Assembly: GCA_010365115.1 (NCBI GenBank)
Contig: JAAFGX010000012.1
Coordinates: 1 to 64,000, forward strand
Direction: 5' to 3'
Source of the DNA: Paludibacter sp.
GTDB taxonomy: Bacteria > Bacteroidota > Bacteroidia > Bacteroidales > Paludibacteraceae
Length of the DNA stretch: 64,000 nt
In this document: piece by piece, positions 28,189 through 63,941 of the stretch
Layout: each line of letters starts with the position of its first letter
Numbering within the stretch: the stretch's first letter is position 1
The notes under the pieces: model-generated
Told to the model about the DNA's origin: nothing
Seen by the model: only the letters and a program-made list of their open reading frames with translations
The model's database searches: none
Program-made: the position numbers and the translations under genes

Positions 28189-28232
28189 AAAAATAAATTT
28201 ATAGTGTATTAAAAATGAGGTTTTTAAAAAAA

Positions 28233-28592
28233 ATAGCAGGTCTGTAAGCCGGGTTCTGTACTTTGTTTGCACAAAGCGTCTGTCATTTATCTCGAACAAA
28301 TGTTGCCATTTGTCTCTAGCGATCTACCCCCCGACATCGGGCGAGAAACCCTACATGCGTCGGTGTACATGATCTTGCAACCCATAAGGCGTACGGCATC
28401 CGATGTTACCACCAAATCCGGTGAGCTCTTACCTCACCTTTTCACCCTTTCCAAACCCGAAGGAATGGTGGTTTTTTTCTGTTACGCTACTCTACTCTTG
28501 CAAACAGCTTCCCGTTAGGAAATATGGTTCTCTGCGTTGCCCGGACTTTCCTCCATTCCAAAATGGAAAAGCGACAAACCGACCTACTATTT
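28233..28592 (-). ncRNA. rnpB: RNase P RNA, bacterial type A
   Basis: On the minus strand the conserved 5' block GGAAAGTCCGGGCAACGCAG lies about 30 nt in. The P15 tRNA-CCA binding region (GGGTGAAAAGGTGAGGTAAG) and the CR-IV/V segment AGAGCTCACCGG follow, and the 3' end has ACAGAACCCGGCTTACAGAC, which pairs back with the 5' part. The RNA ends in a T-run before the brkB start. It processes the 5' ends of tRNA precursors. The ends are placed to within about 5 nt. Confidence 0.95.
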
Positions 28593-30067: not shown

Positions 30068-30099
30068 AAAAAAGGCTTCCAATTTTGGAAGCCTTTTTA
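30068..30099. terminator. Bidirectional terminator between ndh and trpB2
   Basis: AAAAAAGGCTTCC and GGAAGCCTTTTT flank a 6-nt loop. A on one side and T on the other let it serve both converging genes. Confidence 0.9.
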
Positions 30100-30115: not shown

Positions 30116-31480
30116 CTAAACCAAGTTTTCCAATTTGCTAACATTTTTAGCAATATCTTCATCAGACAAAGCATAATTAACCAGATCACCTGCCAAATAT
30201 TGATCGTATGCTGCCATGTCAACTAATCCATGTCCAGATAGATTAAACAAGATAGTTTTAGTTGTGCCTTCTTCTTTGCATTTCAAGGCTTCGTTGATAG
30301 CTGAAGCTATTGCATGAGCCGATTCGGGGGCAGGAACAATTCCTTCGGTTTGAGCGAATAAAACACCGGCTTTAAATGAATCTAGTTGATTAATATCCAC
30401 AGCTTCCATCATTTTATCTTTCATTAGCTGGCTTACAATTGTTCCGGCACCATGATAACGAAGTCCACCTGCATGAATATGTGCAGGAGCAAAATTATGA
30501 CCCAACGTGAACATTGGCAGAAGCGGGGTGTAACCGGCTTCATCTCCAAAGTCATATTCAAATTTGCCACGGGTCAATTTTGGACAAGAAGCTGGTTCAG
30601 CAGCAATAAAACGGGTTTTTTTACCTTCCTTGATGGAATGGCGCATAAATGGAAAAGCCAAACCAGAGAAATTGGAACCACCACCAAAACATCCGATTAC
30701 TATATCAGGATATTCACCAGCCATTTCCATTTGTTTTTCTGCTTCCAAACCTATAACTGTTTGATGCAATGAAACATGATTCAATACGCTTCCCAACGTG
30801 TATTTACAATTTGGCGTACTCATGGCCAATTCTATAGCCTCAGAAATAGCTGTTCCAAGACTTCCCTGATAATTTGGGTTCTTAGTAATTATTTCGCGAC
30901 CCGCTTTGGTTGACATACTTGGTGAAGGAATTACTGTAGCTCCCCATGTTTGCATTAACGAACGACGATATGGTTTTTGTTCGTAACTTATTTTCACCAT
31001 ATAAACTGCCAATTCCAGTCCAAATGCTTTGGCAGCAAACGATAATGCTGTTCCCCATTGTCCTGCACCCGTTTCGGTGGTAATATTAGTTGTACCTTCT
31101 TTTTTACAATAATATGCTTGGGCTAATGCTGAATTTAATTTGTGAGATCCAACCGGACTTACACTTTCGTTTTTGAAATAAATATGTGCCGGAGTGTCCA
31201 ATGCTTTTTCCAAATTATAAGCACGAACAAGTGGAGTAGGGCGGTAGATTTTTAATTTTTCACGAACTTCTTCGGGAATATCAATCCATGCATCAGTCTG
31301 ATTCATTTCTTGATGCGCTAAATCTTTCGCAAATAAAGGATATAAATCTTCTTCTTTTATTGGTTGTTTTGTTCCCGGATGCAACATTGGCAAGGGTTTG
31401 TTTTGCATGTCGGCAACAATATTATACCATTTAGTCGGCAATTCTTTTTCTGCCAGTAGAAATTTCTTTGTTTTTTCCAT
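30116..31480 (-). CDS. trpB2: Tryptophan synthase beta chain, TrpB2 type
   Basis: TrpB makes L-tryptophan from indole and serine with PLP. The 454 residues and the N-terminal extension (KWYNIVADMQNKPLPMLHPG) mark the TrpB2 subgroup, longer than TrpB1 (about 400). The PLP lysine lies in SVSPVGSHKLNSALAQAYY near residue 112, ETGAGQWGTALS follows, and the phosphate loop is CFGGGSNFSG. There is no trpA nearby, so it probably works alone to salvage indole. The 200-nt leader carries a Trp leader peptide and terminator (31534-31695). Confidence 0.95.
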   Translation of the reverse strand: MEKTKKFLLAEKELPTKWYNIVADMQNKPLPMLHPGTKQPIKEEDLYPLFAKDLAHQEMNQTDAWIDIPEEVREKLKIYRPTPLVRAYNLEKALDTPAHIYFKNESVSPVGSHKLNSALAQAYYCKKEGTTNITTETGAGQWGTALSFAAKAFGLELAVYMVKISYEQKPYRRSLMQTWGATVIPSPSMSTKAGREIITKNPNYQGSLGTAISEAIELAMSTPNCKYTLGSVLNHVSLHQTVIGLEAEKQMEMAGEYPDIVIGCFGGGSNFSGLAFPFMRHSIKEGKKTRFIAAEPASCPKLTRGKFEYDFGDEAGYTPLLPMFTLGHNFAPAHIHAGGLRYHGAGTIVSQLMKDKMMEAVDINQLDSFKAGVLFAQTEGIVPAPESAHAIASAINEALKCKEEGTTKTILFNLSGHGLVDMAAYDQYLAGDLVNYALSDEDIAKNVSKLENLV

Positions 31481-31533
31481 GTTCTTGTAATTTAAATCTT
31501 TAAGTATTGTATTTATTTAATTTTTAAAAGAAA

Positions 31534-31563
31534 AGCCTGTCGTTATATTCTAAACAACAGGCT
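31534..31563 (-). terminator. Attenuator terminator in the trpB2 leader
   Basis: In the minus-strand RNA, AGCCUGUUGUU (31563-31553) pairs with AACGACAGGCU (31544-31534) over 11 bp with one G-U, an 8-nt loop, and the tail UUUUCUUUU. It lies 54 bp before the trpB2 start with no gene upstream for it to end, so it must act on the trpB2 transcript itself. Confidence 0.8.
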
Positions 31564-31603
31564 GTTATCATTGTATTTTCTAATAATTTATATCACAAAA
31601 CTG

Positions 31604-31623
31604 AACCTCATTGTTTTCAATGA
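31604..31623 (-). promoter_or_regulatory. Pause hairpin and antiterminator segment of the trp attenuator
   Basis: UCAUUG-AAAA-CAAUGA (31623-31608) forms a 6-bp hairpin over the leader stop codon. Its 3' side lies in AACAAUGAGGUU (31615-31604), which can instead pair with AGCCUGUUGUU, the 5' arm of the terminator, as AACAA/UUGUU plus AGGUU/AGCCU around a small internal loop. These are the 1:2 and 2:3 pairings of a classical attenuator. Confidence 0.65.
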
Positions 31624-31667
31624 TTACTATGCCAACACCAGAGAAATATCGAATGAATGCAGTTCAT
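31617..31667 (-). CDS. Trp leader peptide (MNCIHSIFLWCWHSNH)
   Basis: This 16-codon ORF lies in the trpB2 leader, starting about 14 nt after the predicted transcription start. It has Trp at positions 10 and 12, and its stop codon lies in the pause hairpin. Two Trp in 16 residues is far above the usual share of about 1%. A ribosome stalled at TGG-TGT-TGG would cover the 5' arm of the pause hairpin and free the antiterminator segment. It has no strong Shine-Dalgarno sequence, as is normal in this phylum. Confidence 0.7.
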   Translation of the reverse strand: MNCIHSIFLWCWHSNH

Positions 31668-31687
31668 GAAAATTTGATTTATGCAGG

Positions 31688-31695
31688 CAAAGGTA
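31688..31695 (-). promoter_or_regulatory. trpB2 promoter -7 box
   Basis: TACCTTTG on the minus strand fits TAnnTTTG; the -33 region is only T-rich. Transcription would start near 31681, giving a 200-nt leader. The rest of the 31481-31920 gap holds the divergent yicC promoter and an imperfect inverted repeat TTTTGACACA...TGTGCCAAAA (31740-31770). Confidence 0.6.
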
Positions 31696-63804: not shown

Positions 63805-63807
63805 AAA

Positions 63808-63907
63808 CGGGTAAGCACCCTACATCGCACCGCTACGACCTTTTACCCTTGCTGCGGTCAAGCCCTGGGGGAGTTCAAAGGGAGCTGGTCGTGTAGGACT
63901 TACCCGG
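63808..63907 (-). ncRNA. ffs: Small signal recognition particle RNA (4.5S)
   Basis: The minus strand begins CCGGGTAAGTCCTACACGACC and its end, GGTCGTAGCGGTGCGATGTA plus GGGTGCTTACCCG, pairs with it as a rod. The central part CCCCCAGGGC...CGCAGCAAGGGTAA holds the Ffh-binding CAGG and AGCA internal loops. The RNA works with Ffh and FtsY in co-translational membrane targeting. It has a strong promoter just upstream and no terminator before tRNA-Thr. Confidence 0.93.
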
Positions 63908-63910
63908 GCA

Positions 63911-63941
63911 CAAAAGTACTGCTTTTTCGGGAATTTGCAAA
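63911..63941 (-). promoter_or_regulatory. Promoter of ffs-tRNA-Thr
   Basis: On the minus strand TTTG (63938-63941), exactly 19 nt, and TACTTTTG (63911-63918) give the full Bacteroidota consensus. The RNA would start about 6 nt later at the CCGGG of ffs. Confidence 0.8.

Follow-up and report, generated by a model that had tools for sequence, protein, structure and literature searches.

The trp leader of the Escherichia coli type is made up of clustered Trp codons, an antiterminator that is set against a terminator, and a U-tail. Within the Bacteroidota, a tryptophan peptide leader RNA is known as Rfam family RF01692 (Bacteroid-trp) and is contained in the motif table of PMC2864571; in Flavobacterium psychrophilum, Bacteroid-Trp has been reported upstream of the trp operon (PMC6414381), and clues for leader-peptide attenuation before amino-acid operons were reported for the same species (PMC9723704). 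In Corynebacterium diphtheriae, candidate attenuators were described before trpB1EDGC and before trpB2A (PMC1262725).

Here, we describe a leader upstream of a stand-alone trpB2 in Paludibacter sp. (assembly GCA_010365115.1, contig JAAFGX010000012.1); the window, i.e. the whole stretch that was analysed, comprises positions 1-64,000 of this contig (64,000 nucleotides). From the comparative evidence presented below, this leader is very probably a transcription attenuator of the ribosome-mediated kind, which responds to charged tRNA-Trp and regulates trpB2. It has the architecture of the E. coli type (RF00513), but its target is trpB2 alone, and phylum and promoter type are different. Like RF01692 it is a Trp peptide leader in Bacteroidota, but the antiterminator/terminator sequence is another one, the window has WxW and not WWW, and the target gene differs. 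With F. psychrophilum it shares the phylum and the proposed mechanism, but the accessible text of the two reports (PMC9723704, PMC6414381) makes no mention of trpB2. C. diphtheriae, according to the accessible text of PMC1262725, resembles Paludibacter sp. in having two separate candidate Trp attenuators per genome, one of them before an operon that starts with the second trpB; however, it belongs to the Actinobacteria, its trpB2 lies in an operon with trpA and may belong to a family other than TrpB2 as defined here. The original prediction, made from the letters of this stretch, knew of no described case of attenuation for an isolated trpB2 in Bacteroidota. In the open literature we indeed found no trpB2 leader described for this phylum, with the proviso that such leaders may have been predicted before by Lopatovskaya et al. 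2010 (cited in PMC4833913); the novelty does not extend to Trp leaders of Bacteroidota as such, which are already known from RF01692 and also precede the trp operon of the same genome.

Parts of the leader and identity of the target gene

The elements of the leader and its surroundings are compiled in Table 1. The original prediction had named a promoter box, a leader ORF with two Trp codons, a hairpin over its stop codon, a segment able to pair with the terminator arm and the terminator with its tail, in the order of a trp leader before a tryptophan gene. All of these sequences were found at their places and in this order, and the same terminator stem was recovered by the terminator scan. The pairing of AAACAATGAGGTT with 31563-31552 comprises 12 base pairs and is interrupted by a single bulged A.

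Table 1 Features of the trpB2 leader region in the window, listed in the direction of transcription
Feature	Position	Strand	Basis
TAnnTTTG Bacteroidota -7 promoter box (TACCTTTG)	31688..31695	-	direct read
Leader ORF MNCIHSIFLWCWHSNH, 16 codons	31617..31667 (ATG 31667, TGA to 31617)	-	direct read
Trp codon 10, proposed first stall codon	31638..31640	-	TGG read directly
Trp codon 12, proposed second stall codon	31632..31634	-	TGG read directly
Small 6-bp hairpin TCATTG-AAAA-CAATGA over the stop codon	31608..31623	-	read directly; covariation gives no support
Antiterminator 5' strand AAACAATGAGGTT	31604..31616	-	pairing to 31563-31552
Antiterminator 3' strand AGCCTGTTGTTT, also terminator 5' arm and first loop base	31552..31563	-	pairing, covariation
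Intrinsic terminator AGCCTGTTGTT..AACGACAGGCT, 11-bp stem, 8-nt loop	31534..31563	-	direct read and terminator scan
U-rich tail TTTCTTTT	31526..31533	-	direct read
trpB2, TrpB-like PLP enzyme	30116..31480	-	profile matches; probably a single-gene transcription unit
13-bp terminator-like hairpin directly 3' of trpB2	30069..30098	-	terminator scan

In 8.5 kb scanned for terminators, 5 terminator-like sites were found and 5.5 in shuffles; since such sites are no commoner than in shuffles, the terminator of the window by itself is no evidence. The whole window leader folded with z = -3.07 relative to shuffles, 1 of 200 being equally good.

The protein encoded by the downstream gene reached 710 bits against NF009057 (cut-off 366) and 601 bits against TIGR01415 (cut-off 519), and 148 bits, below the cut-off of 392, against canonical TrpB (TIGR00263). 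By NCBIfam criteria, it is TrpB2 (trpB_rel). What TrpB2 does in genomes that are equipped with a canonical tryptophan synthase as well has been a matter of debate. In a cross-feeding assay, an E. coli trpA mutant is reported to have grown better with the Bacteroides homologue BT_RS23500, from which the authors suggest that Trp was made from indole (PMC11535334). The assembly of Paludibacter sp. also has a match to tryptophanase (L260, G000:C188:515-1876; NF009709, 570 bits), so that the organism might both produce and consume indole; this assembly is listed as 7.2% contaminated, and the tryptophanase contig could be contamination.

Recurrence of Trp leaders before trpB2

Upstream regions of trpB2 were taken from four sources: the best 80 of at least 594 matching stretches among contigs of related genomes; the best 30 places, taken as loci, from 200 genomes of the window's family, 139 of which have trpB2; 60 further upstreams from this list of 139 genomes; and 12 of the 17 non-own matches of a class search, in which trpB2 was matched at E <= 1e-80 in 18 of 295 genomes, own included. 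The pooled sample contained 182 upstream regions, 162 of them distinct. A terminator was found by rule in 55 of the 162, compared with 3.5 in shuffles. In 35 upstreams, compared with 0.10 in shuffles, the terminator was preceded by a short ORF with two or more Trp codons in a span of five codons, demonstrating that paired-Trp ORFs like that of the window recur before trpB2. The rule misses some leaders, such as L117 and L171, which were recognized by eye, and those with one Trp codon.

When the terminator was kept and the stretch in front of it was shuffled, Trp pairs stood at 35 of 55 observed against 1.77 expected (20-fold). The next amino acid was Glu with 13 against 6.97 (1.9-fold), and Trp was the only one of the 20 amino acids that was strongly over-represented in the 55 terminator-bearing upstreams. 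Because the shuffles ignore relatedness, these ratios are not probabilities, although the leaders belong to types of unlike sequence (see below); as far as sequence comparison goes, the leaders are specific for Trp.

The trpB2 leaders form types that share little sequence. Relatives of the window's type have the leader peptide ..YWRWQNY..KQ* together with AAACAATGAGG; compared with most of them, the window leader has an earlier stop codon and Cys, not Arg, as the middle codon. The TGG of Trp codon 10 is conserved in all 18 rows of the leader alignment, and Trp codon 12 is absent in five of them (L090, L092, L096, L006, L038). Other types are NNWWWRNF..KQWS*, SRRWWRWS* with TGGAGGATC against GGCCTCCAT, QQWWWHS and NWQGWRHLHSQRS*. 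The type SWWCTSWRQSCWW* was found at L199 in another family of the class, which is the only one of 12 class upstreams read outside the family that has a leader.

Covariation of antiterminator and terminator

Over 18 window-type leaders, 98.5% of the cells of the terminator were paired, a value equalled by 9 of 500 shuffles, and two of its pairs had changes in both partners. For the antiterminator, 95.8% of the cells were paired (equalled by 20 of 500 shuffles), and one pair had changed in both partners. As regards the hairpin over the stop codon, its sequence is present in the window, but over 18 relatives (own included) 79.6% of the cells were paired, and since 96 of 500 column shuffles reached this value the hairpin is not counted as supported.

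The strongest test concerned bases with which the terminator stem can dispense: in the antiterminator strand those preceding ACAA, and in the terminator loop those following TTGT. In 25 leaders (window type and near kin), 78 of 100 combinations at the first four flank positions were Watson-Crick pairs, while 5000 partner swaps, which keep relatedness in, averaged 62.4 and never exceeded 72; pairing at flank positions one to three had a part in the choice of sites for this set, which biases it toward the antiterminator reading, and L013, without the conserved antiterminator, was excluded. The fourth flank position alone comprised G-C in 6, T-A in 4, A-T in 3 and G-T in 1 leader, and was unpaired in 11. 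When sites were assigned by a rule blind to pairing, 68 of 92 combinations were Watson-Crick in 23 leaders at four positions (swaps: mean 54.9, maximum 66) and 82 of 115 at five positions (swap maximum 76); the blind rule gave no site in L096, L006 and L013 and a seemingly wrong one in L115 and L116. The blind test became weaker when G-U was counted, the observed value being reached by 11 of 5000 swaps at four positions and by 157 of 5000 at three. The window leader itself pairs only at the first two flank positions.

In a simple helix search, a leader's own pairing lay above the 95th percentile of between-type swaps in only 25 of 52 leaders. The helix search scans the terminator 5' arm and loop only and, therefore, mostly missed the UCGUGAG/CUCACGA pairing that was seen by eye in trpB1 leaders. 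The original prediction had put forward that Trp codons and alternative stems should be followed in the upstreams of related trpB2 genes: the Trp codons recur there, and the antiterminator covaries with the terminator loop. With Trp codons, terminator and covarying antiterminator all recurring before trpB2, comparison thus argues for its reading of the leader as a ribosome-mediated Trp attenuator.

Proposed mechanism and folding with a stalled ribosome

In the proposed mechanism, transcription would start just 3' of the TAnnTTTG box and a ribosome, following RNA polymerase, would translate the leader of 16 codons. When Trp is sufficient, the ribosome would reach the stop codon and cover most of AAACAATGAGGTT; the terminator (31563-31534) would then form and transcription would end before trpB2. 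If Trp-tRNA is short, the ribosome would stall at Trp codon 10 or 12 and leave AAACAATGAGGTT free, which could pair with AGCCTGTTGTTT before the 3' arm of the terminator is made, and trpB2 would be transcribed.

The two states were modelled for 38 of the 39 trpB2 leaders, L038 being dropped for want of a terminator by rule. The RNA that was folded was the free part before the terminator 3' arm exists, with the edge of the ribosome placed at the first clustered Trp or at the stop codon. The mean probability that the terminator 5' arm is paired upstream was 0.63 with the ribosome at Trp and 0.24 with the ribosome at the stop codon (n = 38); the difference was at least 0.2 in 28 leaders and smaller in 10. 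As a stalled ribosome leaves more RNA free, this contrast is partly trivial, and the intervening stretch was, therefore, shuffled as a control. The shuffled stretches had a mean of 0.42, and 34 of 38 leaders were above their own shuffled mean, but only 19 of 38 were at <=2 of 40 shuffles; L013, L039, L150 and L173 were no better than shuffles in the stalled folding. The window leader, with 0.62 stalled and 0.39 at stop (difference 0.23) and with 5 of 40 shuffles reaching 0.62, is among the weaker ones. For 14 trpB1 leaders, the corresponding figures were 0.55 and 0.41, with 5 of 14 at <=2 of 40 shuffles. Once the 3' arm was present, the terminator dominated in nearly every ribosome state, so that the switch would have to be kinetic, i.e. 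co-transcriptional. Classical attenuation is likewise co-transcriptional.

Distribution of the leader

Among 29 trpB2 upstreams of the window's genus (own included; one genome with trpB2 fragments only is left aside), 8 have a leader with paired Trp codons, 4 have a leader with one Trp codon (G001, G034, G130, G178) and 17 have none, two of the latter retaining a terminator remnant. The case that the original prediction had named as speaking against it, trpB2 kept and leader parts lost, thus occurs in part. In most of the 17, the whole element is gone and a TAnnTTTG box lies near trpB2, as judged by eye. This pattern would be more in line with an element that is gained or lost as a unit than with an error in the mechanism. 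As in the window, 33 of 39 leaders have the box at most 90 nt upstream of their start, compared with 2.3 expected from mononucleotide shuffles. A box no more than 120 nt away from trpB2 was present in 78 of 123 upstreams without a called leader, which include a few with a leader by eye (e.g. L006, L117, L171), compared with 1 of 39 upstreams with a leader. Presence of a leader, one-Trp leaders included, was scored for 22 of 99 trpB2 proteins; on a quick tree of these 99, the labels required 11 changes, gains and losses alike, and the mean of shuffled labels was about 20. The trpB2 loci of Bacteroides and Parabacteroides among the best 80 of at least 594 had no leader, neither by script nor by eye. 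Upstream of trpB2 in L015 and L106, a tRNA-gene-like sequence was seen by eye where relatives have the attenuator.

At E <= 0.01, a model of the window's leader type (R1) had matches in 51 of the 200 genomes of the family. Of its top 20 matches (E <= 1.3e-6; 200 family genomes plus own), 19 are located directly before trpB2; 12 of the 20 are members of the model or copies of them and, therefore, 7 of 8 new ones adjoin trpB2. Two weaker matches, G054:C28 and G088:C40, are located directly before trpB1. By eye, the match G094:C100 is an unrelated terminator, and the weak matches G056:C58, G010:C147, G172:C205 and G054:C49 have no Trp leader. Another one, L183 (G160:C416:83-204, minus strand), is a degenerate trpB2 leader at a contig end from which the Trp codons are gone; genome G160 belongs to the same genus and has no trpB2 match at E <= 1e-60.

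The presence of such a copy in the same genus raises the question of whether the window leader, too, is a remnant of a working attenuator that no longer regulates, its terminator just setting a constant lower expression of trpB2. The 21 of 29 genus upstreams in which the leader is absent or has one Trp codon would agree with this, as would the modest contrast between stalled and stop state in the window and the shuffles that equal its stalled value. However, the window copy retains two TGG codons, the 11-bp terminator, the U-tail, the antiterminator and the promoter box, and real decay is exemplified by G160, L099 and L012. We consider a relic improbable, and a working attenuator remains the preferred reading.

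Comparison with known RNA families

In a search of Rfam at E <= 5, the window leader matched only SpF11, IMES-4 and Thr_leader, each of which fell well short of its cut-off (Thr_leader with 14.1 bits of 55). Trp_leader (RF00513, cut-off 41) was not matched by the window leader at E <= 5; two trpB2 leaders from other lineages reached 33 bits (L199) and 27.1 bits (L144) and thus stayed under this cut-off. RF01692 matched neither the window nor L095 at E <= 5; it was found in none of 15 trpB2 loci at the gathering cut-off and in none of 16 at E <= 1, with 8 loci common to both sets.

Strong local base conservation and a folding that is better than in shuffles could also be features of an RNA that binds a ligand or tRNA directly, as a riboswitch or T-box does, the small ORF being incidental. 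This is very unlikely: neither a riboswitch nor a T-box was among the Rfam matches of the window leader at E <= 5, leader types of unlike sequence share Trp codons, a short ORF and complementarity to the terminator, and the enrichment of in-frame Trp codons points to translation. That an unrelated small ORF and a terminator stand before trpB2 by chance can practically be dismissed, given the recurrence in 35 of 162 upstreams, the covariation and the Trp enrichment, even if terminator-like sites in this stretch are no commoner than in shuffles.

A second leader before the trp operon

In the same genome, trpB1 is the first gene of a trp operon, whose contig also carries trpE and trpA. This trpB1 is preceded by a leader of its own, MNTILTINKFWWWHSQIS* (WWW), and a terminator (L003, G000:C95, minus strand, about 2896-2755). 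This leader scored 49.4 bits against RF01692 and is, just over the cut-off of 49, a member of the family. Of nine distinct trpB1 loci, five were over this cut-off and four under it (L215, L223, L224, L228). At E <= 0.01, RF01692 had matches in 25 of 101 genomes of the family, and in 12 of these the cut-off was exceeded. By eye, a Trp leader was found in 21 of 23 trpB1 upstreams of the family (330 nt each); L213 has no leader within 330 nt and an RF01692 match some 500 nt upstream. Seven of 30 trpB1 loci had no start by the first motif, and five of these seven have a leader. In other families of the order, a leader was present in all three trpB1 loci. In 26 further loci of the class, no leader was found directly before trpB, where another gene often seems to end (by eye).

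Because the trpB1 leader belongs to RF01692 and the trpB2 leader has no match to it, the latter would be a second, separate Trp attenuator of the genome, placed on a synthase of the indole-salvage type; the mechanism is already known, and its presence here is well supported by comparison. On an indole-using synthase, a Trp attenuator would make physiological sense. It would tie TrpB2 to the tryptophan supply through a regulator that reads charged tRNA-Trp, and would extend Trp attenuation in Bacteroidales beyond the leader family already in Rfam. WWW was present in 13 of 14 script-found trpB1 leaders and in 6 of 35 trpB2 leaders. A tentative extension, to which we give clearly less than even weight, is that the two attenuators have different set points and that the switch before trpB2 has been renewed repeatedly, by divergence or by fresh origin of unrelated sequences. 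If this is true, WWW on the de novo operon and the usually looser cluster on trpB2 would make synthesis and salvage switch at different degrees of Trp shortage. The divergent leaders on one gene may serve as a set for following attenuator turnover.

Elsewhere in the window, a class A RNase P RNA (28229-28590) and a Bacteroidales small SRP RNA (63805-63912), both on the minus strand, were found over their Rfam cut-offs.
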